DNA of 46,790 nt from Desulfobulbus sp. (GTDB taxonomy: Bacteria > Desulfobacterota > Desulfobulbia > Desulfobulbales > Desulfobulbaceae): positions 1 to 46,790 of the forward strand of contig JAAYDD010000264.1 of assembly GCA_012729435.1 (NCBI GenBank). Reading direction: 5' to 3'. Under the pieces are notes generated by a model, which saw nothing but the letters and a program-made list of their open reading frames with translations, was not told where the DNA came from and did no database searches. Position numbers and translations under genes: made by a program. How positions within the stretch are numbered: position 1 is the first letter of the stretch; every line of letters begins with the position of its first letter. This document shows, in pieces, positions 21,297 through 32,712 of the stretch.

Positions 21297-22067
21297 TTAA
21301 AGGCCGTATTTGCGACTGTACCCCCGCGGAGTGATCATCTTGTCCCGCCAGACAAACGTCTGCGAGTTCCCGATGATCACTGTCGTCTGCATGCCGATGT
21401 CCTCATCCAGCATTGCTGCCAGGGTTGTCAGGCGGACAGTCTCATGCTCACGGGTGGCGCCGCTGACGATACCCACCGGTGTATCCGGCGCACGGAAAGC
21501 AAGCATGATGTCGCGGGCTCGTACGATCTGATCAGTGCGTTTTTTTGATTTCGGGTTGTAGATGACCACCACAAAGTCAGCCGGAGCAACCGCCTCAAGA
21601 CGCTGTTCGATCAGCTCCCAGGGAGTCATGAGGTCGGAGAGACTGATGGCGGCAAAATCATGCATGAGCGGTGCCCCGAGGATGGCTGCACAGGCGTTGA
21701 GAGCCGCAATGCCGGGGATGATGTCGATCGGTACCGTGGTGTCCATGGTCCGGGCAAGTTCAAAGACGAGTCCCGCCATGGCGTAGATGCCGGGGTCGCC
21801 GCCGCAGACCAGAGCCACACGCTGCCCCCGGTCGGCAAGTTCCAGGGCTTTGCGGCAACGGTCAATCTCCTGCATCATGGCTGAGGAGAGGACGGTACTC
21901 TCAGGATTGAGGCAGTCCCGGACCAGATCGAGATAGGTCCGGTATCCGACGACCACCTCTGCCTCTTCCAGGGCGGTCCGGGCTCTTGGAGCCATGAGAT
22001 CCACGGCGCCGGGACCGATGCCGACGACGGTGAGTATTCCCTTTGTACTGTGTTCTGCGGTTGTCAT
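21297..22067 (-). CDS. cbiH: Cobalt-precorrin-3 C17-methyltransferase, ring contraction (CbiH)
   Basis: 256 residues from the ATG at 22067, which overlaps the cbiG stop as ATGA; an upstream extension to 22142 lies inside cbiG and is unlikely. It methylates C17 and contracts the ring in anaerobic cobalamin synthesis. The SAM-dependent tetrapyrrole methylase motifs are GIGPGAVDLMAPRARTAL, CGGDPGIYAMAGLVFE, DIIPGIAALNACAA and YNPKSKKRTDQI, the last typical of CbiH/CobJ. It is the last cbi gene of the cluster. Confidence 0.93.
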   Translation of the reverse strand: MTTAEHSTKGILTVVGIGPGAVDLMAPRARTALEEAEVVVGYRTYLDLVRDCLNPESTVLSSAMMQEIDRCRKALELADRGQRVALVCGGDPGIYAMAGLVFELARTMDTTVPIDIIPGIAALNACAAILGAPLMHDFAAISLSDLMTPWELIEQRLEAVAPADFVVVIYNPKSKKRTDQIVRARDIMLAFRAPDTPVGIVSGATREHETVRLTTLAAMLDEDIGMQTTVIIGNSQTFVWRDKMITPRGYSRKYGL

Positions 22068-23113
22068 GATGCTGTGAGTTCCTGTGTTGAAACGGTGAAT
22101 GGATCGGCGATTTCCGCCACGGCAGTGGTGACATCTGCCCATTTTATTTTCGGAACAAGGAGGACACTGCCCGGCCCCGCACTGAGCAGAGCTGCGGGTT
22201 CTGCCACTCCCTTGGCTCCGGTGGCCCGCTGTACCGCCGGTGAGATACTGACTCCCTCAACGTCGTTGAGCTTGTCTTTGCTGTAGAAATCAAGGGGCAG
22301 ATGGAACCTGCGGGCGTATTCGCACAGTCCGGCTTCGTCCTGTTTGAGATCAATGGAGGCCAAGCGGGCAATGGCCTGGAGCGCCAGATCATGTTGCCGG
22401 CAGGTTGACCTGACAGCATCGGCAATCGCCTCGGCGGATGTACCCCGGTTGCAGCCGATACCGACCACAAGGGCCCGTGCAAAAAGGAGGGTGCCCGGGA
22501 AAGCCGTGTCGGTTCTGCTGCTGATGCACAGGTCTGCCCGGGACCGGTCGGTTATCTGCCTGAGATCTTCCGGAAGGTCCGGCAGGGGGTACTGACTCCA
22601 CAGGGTAACGTAGCCCCGATCGACCAGTCGTCCCATGGTACGGGTCAAAGCACCGGAGCTGGCCGCAGTCAGCCGCCACTGCCGGCACCAGAGGTCAAGG
22701 GCGGTGTTCCCGAGAACATCGGAAGCCGTGGTTATGACCGGCCGGCCGCCGGTGATTCCGGCCACCCGTATCGAGAGTTCATTGGCGCCCCCGATATGGC
22801 CGGACAGCAGAGAGATGGCGAAACGACCCAGCTCATCGCAGACCACTATCGCAGGGTCGTGGTATTTGTCCCGGAGGAGTGGGGCAATGGTGCGGACAAC
22901 AATGCCTGTGGCCATGATGCAGACAATCTCAGCATACAGATGCCAGACCTCTTCCACCACGGCAGCAAGCCGGCCTTTGCAGGCAAAGAAGTCACCGTTC
23001 AGCCGGTCGGCCAGGCGGCGTCCGAGTTCACACCCGCCGCGACTGATCGCCAGCACGGCACAGCGCCGGCCCGACCCGGTATCAGCGGTACTCGTGGGAG
23101 AAGTTGTGGGCAT
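22064..23113 (-). CDS. cbiG: Cobalt-precorrin-5A hydrolase (CbiG)
   Basis: 349 residues from the ATG at 23113. CbiG opens the delta-lactone ring and releases acetaldehyde, a step specific to the anaerobic pathway. The N-terminal part has IMATGIVVRTIAPLL and DPAIVVCDELGRFAISLLSGHIGGANEL, both characteristic. The C-terminal CbiG/CobE domain has VVGIGCNRGTSAEAI and VAEPAALLSAG. It overlaps cbiF by 32 bases and cbiH by 4, so translation is coupled on both sides. Confidence 0.94.
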   Translation of the reverse strand: MPTTSPTSTADTGSGRRCAVLAISRGGCELGRRLADRLNGDFFACKGRLAAVVEEVWHLYAEIVCIMATGIVVRTIAPLLRDKYHDPAIVVCDELGRFAISLLSGHIGGANELSIRVAGITGGRPVITTASDVLGNTALDLWCRQWRLTAASSGALTRTMGRLVDRGYVTLWSQYPLPDLPEDLRQITDRSRADLCISSRTDTAFPGTLLFARALVVGIGCNRGTSAEAIADAVRSTCRQHDLALQAIARLASIDLKQDEAGLCEYARRFHLPLDFYSKDKLNDVEGVSISPAVQRATGAKGVAEPAALLSAGPGSVLLVPKIKWADVTTAVAEIADPFTVSTQELTAS

Positions 23114-23861: not shown

Positions 23862-24627
23862 CAGATACCTGTACCTTCTTTTTGCGAATGACCATGGTGG
23901 AGAAGTAGTGGAGTTTCTGCCCGCGCGCCTGACGAACATCGGTATACACCCGTTCATCGGGAAGGCCGGATCGTTCGGTCAGTACCGCACAGTCCACAAG
24001 TCCGAGCTCTTCAAGGAGATCGATCAGGGCATCAATGCGGCGGTGCACCTTCATCAGCACCACGGCATCCATGGTGACGAGGATATCCCGCAGACGATCA
24101 TCTTCAAAGGCGGCCGGTACCACAGCCAGGACATCGTCACCCAGAGCCAGAGGGCTGGACTGTGACGCGGCGCAGGCAGCCATGGCAGTGATGCCCGGAA
24201 TCACCGTGACGTCTGTGTGCGGCCGTTGCTCCTGGATCATGGCGAGGAGGTAGAAGGCCGTGGAGTAGAGGGTGACATCCCCCAGTGTGGGAAAGGCCAC
24301 ATCCTCGCCGCGGTCCAGATACCGCATGACCTCGTCTGCGGACTGCCGCCACGCGTTCAACAGCTGTTCGTCGGTTTCCTGCCCGAGGTAGACTTTTTTC
24401 ATGGGGAAGCAGAGCGAAAGGACGGTGCGGCCGGTATCCGGCACCATCTGTTCTGCGATCTGACGGGCACTGCTTGTTCCGTTCTGTCTGGCTGACGGCA
24501 CGGCCCATACCCGGGTTTGGCTCAGAACACGGACCGCCTTACAGGTCATGAGCTCAGGATCTCCCGGGCCGACACCGACCAGGTACAGATGACCGTTTTG
24601 TGAGGAAAGAGGAGAAACGTTGTTCAT
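23836..24627 (-). CDS. cbiL: Cobalt-factor II C20-methyltransferase (CbiL)
   Basis: 263 residues; the ATG overlaps the cbiET stop as ATGA. It adds a methyl group at C20 of cobalt-factor II (cobalt-sirohydrochlorin), the first methylation after CbiK. LYLVGVGPGDPELMTCKAVRVL is the SAM-binding start, FPTLGDVTLYSTAFYLL the substrate region and VTVIPGITAMAACAA the second glycine-rich loop. Length and motifs fit CbiL/CobI. Confidence 0.94.
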   Translation of the reverse strand: MNNVSPLSSQNGHLYLVGVGPGDPELMTCKAVRVLSQTRVWAVPSARQNGTSSARQIAEQMVPDTGRTVLSLCFPMKKVYLGQETDEQLLNAWRQSADEVMRYLDRGEDVAFPTLGDVTLYSTAFYLLAMIQEQRPHTDVTVIPGITAMAACAASQSSPLALGDDVLAVVPAAFEDDRLRDILVTMDAVVLMKVHRRIDALIDLLEELGLVDCAVLTERSGLPDERVYTDVRQARGQKLHYFSTMVIRKKKVQVSDGSKASAM

Positions 24628-25832
24628 GGGCTGCCTGTGATAAGGGTTATGGGATTGAGACTCTTCACGGTACGATCGGGATAGTGCTGCCGGGTAACGG
24701 CGAGCGTGCTGGCGTGTACCTGGAGGCCGAGCTTCTGCAGACAGGTGATGGCCGTTGTCGCGGTCTGTTCAAGCACGGCGCTTATGACGATTTTTCCTTC
24801 AGGTTTGAGCCGGGCGGTTGCGGCGGTGAGAATCGCCTCCAGCCGTCCCCCGCTGCCTCCGACGAAGATGCGATCCGGATCCGGCAATCCGGCAAGTATT
24901 TCCGGTGCCTCGCCGTTGACCGGTGTGACGGAGTAGCTGCCGTAGCGGCGTATGTTGGCGCGGATATTTTCCAGCTCTTCCGCCTTCTTTTCAATGGTAT
25001 AGACGGAAAGGTCCGGACAGAGATGAGAGGCCTCAAGAGAGACTGATCCGGAGCCGCCGCCGATGTCCCAGAAAATGCCGGTGCGAGGAAGCTGCAAACG
25101 GTGCAGGGCAGCGGCACGGATTTCATCCTTCGTGATCAGGCCCCGGGAGTGCTGAATATCGTTTTCAGAAAGACCGAAGCAGATTTCACGGGGCTGTGCC
25201 GGTTGTTCAATAAGCACCATGTTCAGGGGGCTGAAGGTTCGGTCTGCCATGTCAGCCAGTGGGCCCTCGATCAGTTCCTCGTCGGGCAGCCCCAGGTTTT
25301 GTGCCACTCGCATGTGAAGGGCAGCAAGACGTTCATGGTCGCCGCAGTCTTCCAGTCGTCTGATAAGCTGTGCCGCGATCCGGTCCGGAGTATTCCTGCT
25401 GTCGGTGAACAGGAGCGTTTTTGGACGGCGCAGTACCTGACCTGTGATGTTGTCTGCTGAGCGGCCATGCAGACTGAGGACAGCCAGGTCGTCCCAGGGA
25501 ACACAAAAACGCGAGCAGGCCAGCTGGGCGGCTGACAGAGCCGGATGAACACAGATCCGGTCCGGGCCGAACCGGTCAATGAGAAGACGGCCGATACCGA
25601 AGAACAGGGGGTCGCCACTGGCCAGAATCGCCACATCGCCCATGACCAGGAGCTCCTCGACCTGGTTCAGCATGGTCACCACCGGGCTGATATCGATGAG
25701 CAGCACCGGAATATCGGCAACAAGCGGTTGATGGCGGCGGGAGGCGGCTATGGCACAGCAGTGACGTAAAATTGCCCACTGCCTGCTGTCGAGCTCTGTA
25801 CCGCTGATACCGATCAGTTCAATGCGTGACAT
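24624..25832 (-). CDS. cbiET: Fused cobalt-precorrin-7 C5-methyltransferase and C15-methyltransferase/decarboxylase (CbiE-CbiT)
   Basis: 402 residues from the ATG at 25832, with AGGAG six bases upstream. Residues 1 to about 200 form a CbiE-type tetrapyrrole methylase (IELIGISGTELDSRQW, LASGDPLFFGIGRLL). From about 215 a CbiT-type Rossmann methylase follows (GLITKDEIRAAALHRL, FWDIGGGSGSVSLEAS, PDRIFVGGSGGRLE). The two together methylate C5 and C15 and decarboxylate the C12 acetate. The fusion equals aerobic CobL and is common in many lineages. It overlaps cbiD by 14 bases. Confidence 0.95.
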   Translation of the reverse strand: MSRIELIGISGTELDSRQWAILRHCCAIAASRRHQPLVADIPVLLIDISPVVTMLNQVEELLVMGDVAILASGDPLFFGIGRLLIDRFGPDRICVHPALSAAQLACSRFCVPWDDLAVLSLHGRSADNITGQVLRRPKTLLFTDSRNTPDRIAAQLIRRLEDCGDHERLAALHMRVAQNLGLPDEELIEGPLADMADRTFSPLNMVLIEQPAQPREICFGLSENDIQHSRGLITKDEIRAAALHRLQLPRTGIFWDIGGGSGSVSLEASHLCPDLSVYTIEKKAEELENIRANIRRYGSYSVTPVNGEAPEILAGLPDPDRIFVGGSGGRLEAILTAATARLKPEGKIVISAVLEQTATTAITCLQKLGLQVHASTLAVTRQHYPDRTVKSLNPITLITGSP

Positions 25833-26910
25833 GTACAACTCCTTGATCTGAGGTTACCAGGTAGATGTGCACCGGGAGACCGGACCACTGTTCTGCCTGG
25901 ACTTTGGCCTGCGCGCAGACTGCTGCAATCAGATCGTCGCGCCCTTGTGCCTTGAGGCGGTCGTAGATTTCACGGGTCGTATTGGCATGTCGCAGTTCAT
26001 CCGCACTTGTTTTTTCAAGACCGAGCCGGGTCAGGAGTTCGGCGGTGTGGCGGGTGTCAAGCGCACCGTTGCGCACATGGGTTTGCGGTACCGCCAGCGC
26101 AGCCTTTACGAGCTTGGCCCACATGGCGGCAAGGTGGATGCGTGAAAAGCCGTGACGGTTGGCTGCCTGCAGGGAGTAGAGGAGGTAGTCACCCATCATC
26201 ACCTGTGCCTCCTCCGGCAGCTCAAGCAGACGTTGAACCGCTGTTTCCGAGGTGCGGCCGGTGGCCAGAATCACGTCGTCCAGGCCCGCGGCGCGGGCCA
26301 CCTGCATCGACGCCTCAATGGTGTCGGTCCAGGCTTTGGCTGATACGGGGCGCACAATACCGGTGGTACCGAGAATGGAGAGACCGCCGATCACACCGAG
26401 TCGCCGGTTGAGGGTCTTTTCCGCCAGAATCTCTCCGTCACGAACAAAGATCTCCACTTCGAGAGAACGGTGTTTTTGATCCGATCCGGCCAGAGCCTCC
26501 GCCACCGCAGCCAGGATCATCTGACGGGGGACGGGATTGATGGCCGGCTGGCCGACCGGAACAGGTAAACCGGGTTTGGTCACAACACCGACTCCAGGGC
26601 CGTTCACGAAGACCACGGGTGCAGAACAGGTCTCCTCAAGCCAGCGGACGCGAGCGCCGATTTCGGCACCGTTGGTGACATCCGGATCATCACCCGCATC
26701 CTTGACCACGGTGGCGAATGTGCTCTGTGCGCCGCTGCTCATCCGGCAGAGTGCAAAACTGTGCCGGGAACCGTCGGGAAAAGGGATCTCCACGCCGGAC
26801 AGCTCCTGCTCACCAAGCAGGCCGAGGACAGCTGCCTTGGCAGCTGCTGCGGCACAGGCACCGGTTGTATACCCGCTGCGCAGCGGTCTTTTTCTGCCTG
26901 CGGATCCCAT
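25819..26910 (-). CDS. cbiD: Cobalt-precorrin-5B C1-methyltransferase (CbiD)
   Basis: 363 residues, full length. It methylates C1 after CbiG has opened the lactone. Hallmarks are RSGYTTGACAAAAAKAA at residues 11-27, VVKDAGDDPDVTNGAEI, GPGVGVVTKPGLPVPVGQPAINPVPR, and GGLSILGTTGIVRPVS. It begins 8 bases after cbiC and overlaps cbiET by 14. Confidence 0.97.
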   Translation of the reverse strand: MGSAGRKRPLRSGYTTGACAAAAAKAAVLGLLGEQELSGVEIPFPDGSRHSFALCRMSSGAQSTFATVVKDAGDDPDVTNGAEIGARVRWLEETCSAPVVFVNGPGVGVVTKPGLPVPVGQPAINPVPRQMILAAVAEALAGSDQKHRSLEVEIFVRDGEILAEKTLNRRLGVIGGLSILGTTGIVRPVSAKAWTDTIEASMQVARAAGLDDVILATGRTSETAVQRLLELPEEAQVMMGDYLLYSLQAANRHGFSRIHLAAMWAKLVKAALAVPQTHVRNGALDTRHTAELLTRLGLEKTSADELRHANTTREIYDRLKAQGRDDLIAAVCAQAKVQAEQWSGLPVHIYLVTSDQGVVHVTH

Positions 26911-26918
26911 GGATTATC

Positions 26919-27539
26919 TCAGGCAAGTCGCAGGAGAGCGTTGATGACGGCAACTGCCACCGGAGTACCGCCTTTGCGGCCCAGGGCGGTGATGAACGGA
27001 TAGGGTTGCTCGGCGAGGATCTCCTTGGATTCGGCGGCATTGACAAAGCCGACCGGCACCCCGATCACCAGATCGGGCTTAAAGAGGTCCTGATCGATCA
27101 GTTCCATGACTTTGAGCAGGGCCGTCGGAGCGTTGCCCACAGCAACGATGCCGATGTTGTCGGCGATGCTTCGGCTCATGGCCGCATCGGATCGGGTTGT
27201 CCTGTTGGCATTGGCCATGGTCGCCGTTTCAGCCTCTGCTATCCGGCAGATGACCCGGCCGCCGAAACGGGCAAGAAGGGTGCTGGAAACACCACTTGCC
27301 GCCATGTTGACATCAACCAGGATGTTTTTTCCGCTGCGGATGGCGGTAAGACCGGCGTTGACGGCCTGCGGGTGGAAACGAAGGGTTTCGGCAAAATTGA
27401 AGTCACCGGTGGCATGGATGATCCGCCGGACCACGGCAAATTCTTCCGGTGTGAAGTTCGTGGGGCCGAGTTCGTGTTCAATGATACGGAAACTTTCCGC
27501 CTCGATGTTGTGGGGAGCAATGGGTTGAAGTGTGACCAT
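26919..27539 (-). CDS. cbiC: Cobalt-precorrin-8 methylmutase (CbiC)
   Basis: 206 residues from the ATG at 27539, five bases after the cbiA stop and without its own clear ribosome binding site, so probably translated by coupling. An ATG at 27620 lies within cbiA and is unlikely. CbiC moves the methyl group from C11 to C12 to make cobyrinic acid. Motifs are IEAESFRIIEHEL, the catalytic His in RIIHATGDFNFAETLRF, DVNMAASGV and IGVPVGFVNAAESKE. Confidence 0.95.
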   Translation of the reverse strand: MVTLQPIAPHNIEAESFRIIEHELGPTNFTPEEFAVVRRIIHATGDFNFAETLRFHPQAVNAGLTAIRSGKNILVDVNMAASGVSSTLLARFGGRVICRIAEAETATMANANRTTRSDAAMSRSIADNIGIVAVGNAPTALLKVMELIDQDLFKPDLVIGVPVGFVNAAESKEILAEQPYPFITALGRKGGTPVAVAVINALLRLA

Positions 27540-27544
27540 GGCAA

Positions 27545-28954
27545 TCAGAAAGGTTGAGGGATGGGGGCCGAAGTGCGCGCCAGGAACGCAGTATCTGTGC
27601 TGATGCTGCACTGCCTGCATATCCGGACAAACCGGTGTGCCGCTTCAGGGGTACGCCCCCAGTGGAGATGGAGAAAACCTGCCAGCGTATGGGCGTTGCG
27701 GGTCAGGTAGCCTTCGCTTCGGTTGTCAGTCAGCCGGAAGGCTGTGGCTGCCGGCGTATCGCCGATCGTTATGCTTGAATAGTGGAATTCGTGGCCGTAA
27801 AGCTCTCCACCCTGCGGTGCCAGCAGACAGTCGGTCAGTACCCGGGCATGGCGATACCCGAGGCTGCACAGTGTCGGGTGGACCTGGGCGGTAAACGGGT
27901 AGAGGCCGGTCAGGGCATGGGTGTCGCCTTCCTGGTCGGTTATTGACCGGCACAGGTATATAAAACCACCGCTTTCACCGTAGATCGGTCTGCCCGAACC
28001 GGCAAAGCGGCGGATCTGGTCGAGCATGCTTCTGTTCGTGCTGAGACGATGGGCATGGAGCTCAGGGTATCCGCCGCCCAGATAGAGCCCTGTCAGACCG
28101 GACGGGAGCCGGTCATCATTGAGCGGGCTGAAAAAAACAAGTTCTGCGCCGGCATTCCGGAGCAGCTCGAGATTGTCCTCGTAGTAAAAAGAAAAGGCTG
28201 CATCCCTGGCGATTCCGAGCCTGACAGGGCTGCCGGCGGCCGGTTGCGGGGCTTCCAGGCCCTGATCAGGCCGGGTGCTGCAACCTGCAGCAATCCGCAT
28301 GAGCATCTCCAGGTCAAGGTGACGTTCGATGAGATCAGCGAGTTCGTCCACAACCTGCCTTGACAGAGGATGGTCTTCGTCTACGTACAGGCCGAGGTGA
28401 CGGGAGGGAAGTGTGATGCTTTCACGACGAGGCAGAAATCCGATCAACTGGACCGGGCAGCGGGCCTGAATGGCTTCGGCAATCATGGCCTGGTGTTTGG
28501 CTGATCCGACACGGTTGCAGACGACTCCGGCCAGCCTGATGGAAGGATCCAGCGTGGCAAATCCATGGACCACTGCTGCCACACTTTCAGCTGCGGAACG
28601 GACATCGATGACGAGGAGAACCGGCAGGTCGAGAGTTTTTGCTAGCGTTGCCGCAGAACCTTCACCGCCGTCAAAGAGTCCCATAACTCCTTCAACCACC
28701 GCAGTGCCGTCTGCGGAGGTGTGACGGGCAAAGGTCCGGCGGACAAAGGCTTCTCCGCACATACGGATATCAAGGTTACGCGACACTCGGCCGGTGACCA
28801 GCCGGTGCAGACCGGGATCAATGAAGTCCGGGCCGGTTTTGAAAGGGTGAACCCTGACTCCGCGTCTCGTCAGAGCGGCCATCAGTCCGAGGGTAACTGT
28901 TGTTTTACCGCAACCTGAATGAGTTCCGGCAACGAGTATCGCTGAACAGCTCAT
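27545..28954 (-). CDS. cbiA: Cobyrinic acid a,c-diamide synthase (CbiA) with Ser at the glutaminase nucleophile site
   Basis: 469 residues, full length. CbiA uses ATP and glutamine to amidate the a and c carboxyls of cobyrinic acid. The N-terminal P-loop domain starts AILVAGTHSGCGKTT (about 5-19), with PFKTGPDFIDPGLH and VEGVMGLFDG. The C-terminal class I glutaminase domain shows YLGGGYPELHA and GHEFHYSSI, with the catalytic His near 388-391. At the nucleophile position the protein reads YGESGGFIYL: residue 328 is Ser (AGC at 27973-27971) where the family normally has Cys (ECGG). The glutaminase may therefore be weak or ammonia-dependent. The start overlaps the btuF stop as ATGA. Confidence 0.93.
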   Translation of the reverse strand: MSCSAILVAGTHSGCGKTTVTLGLMAALTRRGVRVHPFKTGPDFIDPGLHRLVTGRVSRNLDIRMCGEAFVRRTFARHTSADGTAVVEGVMGLFDGGEGSAATLAKTLDLPVLLVIDVRSAAESVAAVVHGFATLDPSIRLAGVVCNRVGSAKHQAMIAEAIQARCPVQLIGFLPRRESITLPSRHLGLYVDEDHPLSRQVVDELADLIERHLDLEMLMRIAAGCSTRPDQGLEAPQPAAGSPVRLGIARDAAFSFYYEDNLELLRNAGAELVFFSPLNDDRLPSGLTGLYLGGGYPELHAHRLSTNRSMLDQIRRFAGSGRPIYGESGGFIYLCRSITDQEGDTHALTGLYPFTAQVHPTLCSLGYRHARVLTDCLLAPQGGELYGHEFHYSSITIGDTPAATAFRLTDNRSEGYLTRNAHTLAGFLHLHWGRTPEAAHRFVRICRQCSISTDTAFLARTSAPIPQPF

Positions 28955-30714: not shown

Positions 30715-31735
30715 TCCGTTGCCTTCGCTTGAAGAGGATACAGAAAAACGGGCCGCCGAGCAGAGCGGTGAGGACACCGATCGGTACCTCCGTCGGCAGC
30801 ACAGCCCTGGTCAGTGTGTCGGCTACCAGAAGGAGCAGGCCGCCCGCAAAAAAGGCGAGCGGAACCAGGAGCCGATTGTCCGGACCGACAAGGTGACGGA
30901 GCATGTGAGGAACAATGAGGCCGACAAATCCGATGATGCCGGAGACCGAAACGGCAAGGGCGGTCATCAGGGAGGTCACAACGAGAAGAGAGAGCCGGAT
31001 CCGGACTGCATGCACTCCGAGTGAAGTGGCGGTGCGGTCTCCTGTGGCCATGATGTTGAGATCCCGACTGTAGTAGATCGCCACCAGAGTGCCGATCAGC
31101 GCGGCAGGGGCCAGGAGTGCAATGTTGGCCCAGGACGCACCGGCAAGGCTGCCCATGAGCCAGAATACGATCAGACCGACCTGTTCGTCGGCCAGGAACT
31201 TCAGAAAGCCGATGGCTGCCGAAAGAATAGCGGCGACAATAACTCCGGCGAGAATGAGGCTTGTGGACGAGAGACGCCGGTCCCCGGAAGCAAGAAACAA
31301 GACGACTGCGAGGGTGGCTACAGCACCCCCGAAGGCAAAGATCGGCACAGTCACGCTGGTGGGCAGAGAAAGACCGAAAATCTGAAACACAATGACGAGC
31401 GAAGCTCCGAAGGCGGCCCCTGTGGAAATACCCAGAGTGTATGAATCGGCAAGGGGGTTGAGCAGGATGGCCTGAAAAACGGCCCCGCTGACACCAAGCA
31501 GGCCGCCGACCAGCACCGAAGCGAGGATTCTGGGCATGCGCACGTCAGCGATGACAGTGGCGGCGACCGGATCGATATCTGCCGGAGGTGCCTGTCCGCT
31601 TATCTTGGCAAAGAGAACTGCCACCACGTCTGTGACTGACACCGGCAGAAAACCGAGGGTTGCCGAGAAGGCTACCGCGGCCGCCACGGTTGCGGCGAGC
31701 GGCAGGAGCCATGCTGTCACGGTTCTTCTCGTCAT
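30695..31735 (-). CDS. ABC transporter permease (BtuC/FecCD family)
   Basis: 346 residues with about ten membrane segments, the size of BtuC or FecD. Family segments are VRMPRILASVLVGGLLGVSG, NPLADSYTLGISTGAAFGA, ISGIIGFVGLIVPHMLRHLVGPD and LPTEVPIGVLTALLGGPFF. The ATG overlaps the cbiK stop by one base (TGATG). With the ATPase and binding protein it makes a complete importer for a corrinoid, haem or metal chelate. Its place in a B12-riboswitch operon suggests a cobalt or corrinoid cargo. Confidence 0.93.
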   Translation of the reverse strand: MTRRTVTAWLLPLAATVAAAVAFSATLGFLPVSVTDVVAVLFAKISGQAPPADIDPVAATVIADVRMPRILASVLVGGLLGVSGAVFQAILLNPLADSYTLGISTGAAFGASLVIVFQIFGLSLPTSVTVPIFAFGGAVATLAVVLFLASGDRRLSSTSLILAGVIVAAILSAAIGFLKFLADEQVGLIVFWLMGSLAGASWANIALLAPAALIGTLVAIYYSRDLNIMATGDRTATSLGVHAVRIRLSLLVVTSLMTALAVSVSGIIGFVGLIVPHMLRHLVGPDNRLLVPLAFFAGGLLLLVADTLTRAVLPTEVPIGVLTALLGGPFFCILFKRRQRNGATAF

Positions 31736-32637
31736 CAGGGTAACTCCACTCCGGCGTCGGCCGCTGCTTCGGCCGCATGGTCGATGAGAATCTGGACGAG
31801 ATCCGGGTTCTCGTTCAACCCTGCAAGCACAGGAGTTACTTCGAACCCCTGTTCAGTCAGCCTTGACAGCCATGAATCCTCTTCCGGGCCGGCGAGATCG
31901 CGGCTGGCATGTTCGCCGGCTACAAGGAGGAAAGGCTTGAGTATCACCCGGCGGACCTCATGGTGCCGCAGGTCGGTCAGGATGTCATCAAGAGCGGGAA
32001 AACCTTCTGCTGTGGCAATCAGAGTCAGGACATCCGGATATAACTGCCGCATACGGGCTGCAAATTCGAGATACAGACCGCCGGACGGAAAGAACCGGTT
32101 GCCGTGGCCCATGTAGACGAGGGCTGCTTTTCTGTCACGCGCGAGAGCCGCATCTTCGGACAACGCTTCGGCAACCCGGCGGATGTCGCCGGAGTACGGG
32201 CGCTGGAGATGGTAGCTTCCGAGAAGCGGCCGGCCAAGCGCAATGGTTTTAAATGGCCGCCATTTCGGTTTCATGGTGGTGATCGAGGTCAGGCCGCGGA
32301 TGTAGGAGCCGAGATCATGAAACTCTTCAGCCGGAACAATGTGGGTCGGCTGAACGATGAGGGTGTCGACTCCCCTGTCCTGGAGGTTGGCAATGGCAGC
32401 CAGAACACCCTGGATTTTAAGGATCTCTCCGGGGATATCGGGGTGCGCATTCAAGTAGACGGGATCCCGGGCCCGACGCTGCCAGATCCAGCGGATCTGA
32501 TTGGATGTAAAGGCCATTGTAACCGGAATACCCGGGAAAGCATCGCTCATGGTCCGGCACATGGACAAGAGTCCGGAGACGGCCGTCTCCACCGTGGTGC
32601 CGAATGTGGCTAAGATGATCGCTTTGTTTTCGTGCAT
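31735..32637 (-). CDS. cbiK: Anaerobic sirohydrochlorin cobaltochelatase CbiK
   Basis: 300 residues from the ATG at 32637 with AGGA upstream; a GTG at 32670 is possible but unsupported. It inserts cobalt into sirohydrochlorin without ATP, the first committed step of the anaerobic pathway. Motifs are KAIILATFGTTVETAV at the N-terminus, YMGHGNRFFPSGGLYLEF with the active-site His, and LKPFLLVAGEHASRDLAG with the second His and acidic residues. No signal peptide is present, so it is the cytoplasmic type rather than the periplasmic CbiK known from Desulfovibrio. It is the first gene after the riboswitch. Confidence 0.94.
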   Translation of the reverse strand: MHENKAIILATFGTTVETAVSGLLSMCRTMSDAFPGIPVTMAFTSNQIRWIWQRRARDPVYLNAHPDIPGEILKIQGVLAAIANLQDRGVDTLIVQPTHIVPAEEFHDLGSYIRGLTSITTMKPKWRPFKTIALGRPLLGSYHLQRPYSGDIRRVAEALSEDAALARDRKAALVYMGHGNRFFPSGGLYLEFAARMRQLYPDVLTLIATAEGFPALDDILTDLRHHEVRRVILKPFLLVAGEHASRDLAGPEEDSWLSRLTEQGFEVTPVLAGLNENPDLVQILIDHAAEAAADAGVELP

Positions 32638-32712
32638 GGCTGCTTTTCCTGGTTGACGGCAGGCTGACACTTGACGGACAGGTGCGTATCAGGCTTTACG
32701 GGCCGCTGAAAC

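Follow-up and report, generated by a model that had tools for sequence, protein, structure and literature searches.

A serine at the glutaminase nucleophile position of CbiA in two Desulfobulbus species

Results

The cbiA gene and its surroundings

The window, by which we mean the whole 46,790-nucleotide stretch of Desulfobulbus sp. DNA that was analyzed, contains on its minus strand (27545..28954) a reading frame of 469 aa with no internal stops. The product belongs to the CobB/CbiA family: it scored 501.7 bits against the NCBIfam model NF002204 (CobB/CbiA, cut-off 254) and 438.9 bits against TIGR00379 (cut-off 261.4), and Pfam identified the domains CbiA (PF01656) and GATase_3 (PF07685). The match to NF002204 alone leaves the substrate open, as a CbiA-like paralogue, presumed to be DsrN, also exceeds the cut-off of that model. 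The ATP-dependent amidoligase half covers residues 5–240 (28235..28942, minus strand; boundaries set by hand) and is followed by the GATase_3 half at residues 246–434 (27653..28219, minus strand).

The gene is a member of a cob operon, as further cob genes follow it on the same strand. These are a precorrin-8X methylmutase-like (CbiC-like) gene (26919..27620, best model below its cut-off), cbiD (25819..26910, over cut-off), a cbiE-cbiT fusion in a single 404-aa frame (24624..25838, both models over cut-off), and a cbiG-like gene (22064..23113, below cut-offs). The CbiC-like frame as listed overlaps the 3' end of cbiA, and the true start of that gene probably lies further inside the frame. A CbiK-like cobaltochelatase, also on the minus strand, is found at 31735..32670 with a weak match (109.8 bits, cut-off 400). 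The genome of the window additionally encodes cobQ and cbiB, both over cut-off, and a CobD-like gene slightly below it.

Around codon 328, the minus strand reads TAC GGT GAA AGC GGT GGT TTT, giving the peptide Y-G-E-S-G-G-F, with the AGC at 27973–27971 (feature 27971..27973). The original prediction, that Ser occupies the place of the glutaminase nucleophile Cys in this CbiA, was borne out by the sequence and by alignments. In an AlphaFold2 model of the protein (mean pLDDT 90.7), the C-terminal half is predicted to have the class I GATase fold with its nucleophile elbow, residue 328 being placed between strand 324–327 and helix 329–334 as expected for such an elbow, and Foldseek matched the model to CTP synthases and GatD.

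Catalytic residues in comparison with GatD

We aligned a profile of 42 CbiAs to solved structures and counted residue pairs along the printed alignment. The top sequence matches were GatD proteins, among them GatD of the MurT/GatD complex (6fqb_E, E 6.5e-06). The E-C-G-G of CbiA aligned on I-C107-G-G of GatD, and Y427-x-H429 on Y204-F-H206. Cys107, His206, and Asp32 are described as the probable catalytic residues of GatD, and in the S. aureus protein replacement of Cys94, which matches Cys107, by Gly abolished lipid II amidation and replacement by Ala suppressed the residual glutaminase activity (PMC6085368). The alignment with the Cys107/His206 pair supports the premise that the Cys of ordinary CbiAs is the nucleophile. 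GatD defines the Cys/His pair that the two proteins have in common; it differs from the Ser CbiA in being a separate subunit, in partnering a Mur-ligase-like protein, and in keeping its Cys.

The same alignment bears on the histidine. The original prediction had taken the conserved HEFH (residues 388–391; 27782..27793, minus strand) as part of the active site, and this motif is retained. The catalytic His of CbiA is nevertheless probably His429 of the LHLHW motif (27668..27670, minus strand), as it is His429 that aligns with His206 of S. pneumoniae GatD, and HEFH is then probably the wrong histidine. By the definition of a class I (triad) amidotransferase, the protein has the fold and the putative catalytic His and lacks the nucleophile Cys in the elbow motif.

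Ser328 is inherited and rare

The nearest relative of the window's CbiA comes from the same genus (L005), is 76% identical at the protein level, scored 509.2 bits against NF002204, and has the same AGC codon. We infer that the genome carrying it is that of Desulfobulbus oligotrophicus Prop6, an isolate from a sewage sludge digester whose circular chromosome of 3,102,012 bases is reported as PacBio-sequenced at 1,236-fold coverage with QV 93 (PMC7862947). The genome of the window itself is split over 376 contigs and 82.7% complete, and such fragmentation would on its own leave room for a sequencing or assembly error. Such an error would, however, have been needed twice, since a separately sequenced species, reported at the above coverage, has the same codon and also the same two companion changes described below. 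Ser328 is thus inherited and not a sequencing error, for which we see a practically negligible probability. The original prediction had allowed that reads might show TGC at this codon; the independently sequenced species shows AGC.

Residue 328 was Cys in 48 of the 50 family orthologues counted, the exceptions being the window's CbiA and its nearest relative; one more family orthologue, left outside this count (L144), also has Cys. Among wider relatives (the best 80 of 586, of which at least two, L034 and L035, duplicate family members), 79 had Cys and the remaining one Gly, and Cys was present in all 11 CbiA-like paralogues examined. The Gly belongs to the CbiA of a Clostridia assembly (L101:5001-6353), which keeps Y427 and M358; this may reflect a separate loss of the glutaminase, or else an error. 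An Acidobacteriales CbiA (L072) shows a different pattern, E389Q and H391R with Cys328 kept.

Motif surveys of 257 genomes of the order and 395 genomes of the phylum found no further Ser CbiA. The surveys used the pattern Y-[AG]-E-S-G-G, which is blind to CbiAs whose motif lacks the initial Tyr, several of which are known, and 10 of the 257 order genomes match the pattern with no codon at all. With AGY serine codons, the order survey gave three places, two of them CbiA (the window's gene and that of its nearest relative), and with TCN codons five places, none of them CbiA. The phylum survey gave 80 AGY places, one being the window's cbiA; the remaining 79 were examined in two sets (30 + 49) and contained no CbiA, and neither did the nine TCN places. 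Of the 79, 35 (16 + 19) resemble what we take, from its motif, to be alanyl-tRNA synthetase. Within the reach of this pattern, a wider Ser clade was rejected. So was selenocysteine at residue 328: some relatives have an in-frame TGA, but the stops seen fall at query positions 449–466, beyond the conserved protein, and none at 328. The original prediction had left room for Ser being common in a large CbiA clade; the Ser CbiA is instead a rare, real variant of a known enzyme, found only in a two-species lineage. The open literature searched (one open library) gave no published account of a Ser CbiA.

Companion changes in the GATase half

We compared the two Ser proteins with columns conserved at ≥95% in 78 non-family relatives, taken from the best 80 of 586 after exclusion of the two family duplicates (L034 and L035). 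This external set comprised 33 GATase columns (residues 246–446) and 40 ATPase columns. Both Ser proteins departed at three of the 33 GATase columns, C328S, M358V (codon 358, 27881..27883, minus strand), and Y427F (codon 427, 27674..27676, minus strand), and at none of the 40 ATPase columns. Among the remaining 48 proteins of the family, GATase departures averaged 0.06 and never exceeded one each, and the outside relatives themselves had at most two each. With conservation raised to 98%, the Ser pair departed at two of 26 GATase columns (C328S and Y427F), and with 100% at one of 19 (Y427F). An internal set, with columns defined from 60 Cys proteins (45 GATase and 51 ATPase), again gave three and zero departures for the Ser pair; in this test L083, a Cys-bearing non-family relative, had four in 46 against the three of the Ser pair, and such departures are thus not unique to Ser proteins.

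Residue 427, two residues before the probable catalytic His429, was Tyr in all 128 other CbiA relatives (the wider ones being the best 80 of 586); of the 11 paralogues, 10 have Tyr as well and one has a gap. Residue 358 was Met in 125 of the same 128 relatives, and Ile or Leu in all 11 CbiA-like paralogues. The change at residue 332 (27959..27961, minus strand) is a weak signal: the window's CbiA has Ile and its nearest relative Leu where all 48 Cys proteins of the family have Met, and Ile or Leu occurs in nine of the wider relatives (best 80 of 586) and Ile in 11 of 11 paralogues. As the three GATase changes are common to both Ser species, they count as one evolutionary observation on one branch.

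The Ser pair kept His429, HEFH, the GG after the nucleophile, and G294-G295. The original prediction that the rest of the site is intact accordingly held for HEFH and His429 and failed at M358V and Y427F, which depart from conserved columns; its companion claim of an intact ATP-binding half stood, with none of the 40 externally conserved columns changed. The Ser protein thus shares with an ordinary CbiA/CobB its length, domain order, ATPase half, His429, HEFH, and operon context; what sets it apart is Ser328 instead of the nucleophile Cys, together with Val at 358 and Phe at 427 in place of Met and Tyr.

Selection on the two halves

We compared the branch lengths of the two halves on a fixed tree of 62 proteins. 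The stem leading to the Ser pair measured 0.415 for the GATase half against 0.281 for the ATPase half, a ratio ranking 17th of 101 branches (median 0.94), and the ratios on the two tips were 0.86 and 0.72. Between the two Ser species, dN/dS was 0.15 for the GATase half and 0.18 for the ATPase half. Both values fall inside the ranges given by 95 non-independent Cys pairs (0.06–0.41 and 0.07–0.35, respectively), which led us to reject gene decay. That the frame is not decayed, as originally predicted, is confirmed by these ratios and by the uninterrupted 469 aa. The GATase half is under continued purifying selection, and the long stem, ordinary tips, and low dN/dS together mean that it changed once and has been held since.

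Cobalamin and nitrogen context of the Ser genomes

The cob frames of the nearest relative, judged by eye, have the same order as those of the window. In D. oligotrophicus, two methylmalonyl-CoA mutases exceed the cut-off of 876 bits (1147.6 and 1095.4), and a MetH-like protein falls short of its own cut-off. NifH over cut-off was absent from both Ser genomes, of which the window's is incomplete, and it was present in two of three Cys congeners tested and absent from one. With one Cys congener sharing the absence and one of the two Ser genomes incomplete, the NifH pattern says little.

In each of the two Ser genomes, five matches to PF00117 keep Cys, and so does CobQ (GICGG); the protein labels of the PF00117 matches, unlike that of CobQ, were assigned from motifs. 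Among the class I GATases examined in the two genomes, the loss of Cys is specific to CbiA, and a general loss of glutaminases was rejected for the class I GATases seen.

Discussion

The original prediction had offered free ammonia, a Ser nucleophile, and supply from another glutaminase as ways in which this enzyme could work. These are still the right three, and our data lean toward free ammonia while stopping short of proof. On balance, we find it probable, from sequence comparison, that an ancestor shared by the two Desulfobulbus species had the glutaminase of its CbiA abolished or crippled, and that the CbiA of both species amidates cobyrinic acid with free ammonia. The ATPase half of the CbiA family forms acyl phosphates, and the N-terminal half of the Ser protein would activate the a- and c-carboxylates with ATP like other CbiAs; cytoplasmic ammonia, not derived from glutamine, would then attack the activated carboxylates. 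The GATase half would be retained since the ATPase half needs it, be it for folding, for subunit contacts, or as a path for ammonia. Sewage digesters are rich in ammonium. Both glutamine and ammonia are described as substrates of CobB (PMC8123684), and loss of the glutaminase need therefore not halt the reaction where ammonium is plentiful.

A similar situation is described for human CPS1, in which Ser294 replaces the catalytic Cys; the enzyme draws its ammonia from the surroundings and keeps an inactive glutaminase-like domain (PMC4655335). CPS1 belongs to another protein family with another chemistry, and while loss of glutaminase activity and use of ammonia are established there, we infer both for the Ser CbiA, along with the structural role of its GATase half. 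The parallel is also not a clean one: the same study allows for a contribution of further factors, because the CPS1 of a frog is unable to use glutamine despite an intact triad (PMC4655335).

That selection still holds the GATase half in place is compatible with a role in structure or as an ammonia path, but also with a Ser that works as nucleophile. Since the split of the two species this half has evolved no faster than the ATPase half; a domain kept for structure alone could have drifted more, which might count against the use of free ammonia. We consider it unlikely that Ser328 works as a nucleophile, so that the class I GATase fold would house a Ser-His glutaminase for which Y427F and M358V compensate, and slightly less likely again that, more specifically, Ser328 and His429 hydrolyze glutamine via an ester intermediate in a pocket retuned by these two changes for the weaker nucleophile. 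Ser nucleophiles are found in the related folds of aspartyl dipeptidase and cyanophycinase, and retention of His429, of the glycines after the nucleophile and at 294–295, and of HEFH, the purifying selection on this half, and the predicted placement of residue 328 in an elbow would all suit such an enzyme. Against it, the inability of human CPS1 to use glutamine is attributed to this very replacement of Cys by Ser (PMC4655335). The disappearance of a Tyr hydroxyl next to the probable catalytic His also looks more like loss than like refinement, and the absence of a Ser-type class I glutaminase from the open literature searched is weak evidence in the same direction. It is the simultaneous loss of this conserved Tyr that makes us favor the use of free ammonia.

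The remaining alternatives involve other proteins of the cell. Homologues of CbiA, such as DsrN and CfbB, amidate other tetrapyrroles, and DsrN is described as a siroheme amidase that most organisms with a Dsr pathway possess (PMC10504309). The second CbiA-like protein (L145:9322-10704 and L147:1-714) scored 423.3 bits against the CobB cut-off of 254, and the family model cannot separate it from CbiA; this gives some room for the idea that the paralogue performs the amidation of cobyrinic acid and that the Ser CbiA is redundant or re-purposed. We regard that as improbable, as the paralogue is more likely, we presume, DsrN, and the Ser CbiA is still encoded within the cob operon of both species, with its conserved ATPase columns unchanged and dN/dS at about 0.15–0.18. 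All 11 CbiA-like paralogues, presumed DsrN, differ from the Ser CbiA in keeping Cys and from CbiA in having Arg at position 391. No dsrAB was seen near the paralogue in the frames listed.

More doubtful still is that ammonia is channeled to the Ser CbiA within a complex with another glutaminase, either the Cys-bearing DsrN-like paralogue or CobQ. Both Ser genomes encode a CobQ with GICGG, and D. oligotrophicus has a CbiA-like paralogue with ECGG; the copy in the window's genome breaks off at the end of its contig, ahead of the GATase active site. A match to the paralogue is, however, found as well in 16 of the 18 congeners that have a Cys CbiA, the paralogue lies outside the cob operon next to what we take to be uvrB- and mazG-like genes, and whole-genome searches with PF00117 and PF07685 placed no other GATase on the window's contig.

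A lineage that has lost the Cys and kept both domain and operon, with a B12-dependent methylmalonyl-CoA mutase encoded in D. oligotrophicus, forms a natural experiment on whether this amidotransferase needs glutamine in the cell. If free ammonia is indeed the nitrogen source, the Ser CbiA would provide a parallel to CPS1 in bacteria. One of the two carriers is apparently a cultured type strain, and the use of glutamine, the use of ammonia, and a Ser nucleophile are thus separable. For annotation, the case means that the label "glutamine-hydrolysing" can fail for a member scoring far above the family cut-off.

As a separate observation on class I amidotransferases of these species, both Ser genomes have what we take to be HisH and HisF in one open frame, the arrangement of eukaryotic HIS7. 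The frame is 584 aa from stop to stop in the window's genome (contig C18) and 537 aa in D. oligotrophicus, where it was partly seen, and the nucleophile Cys is intact in these fusion frames.
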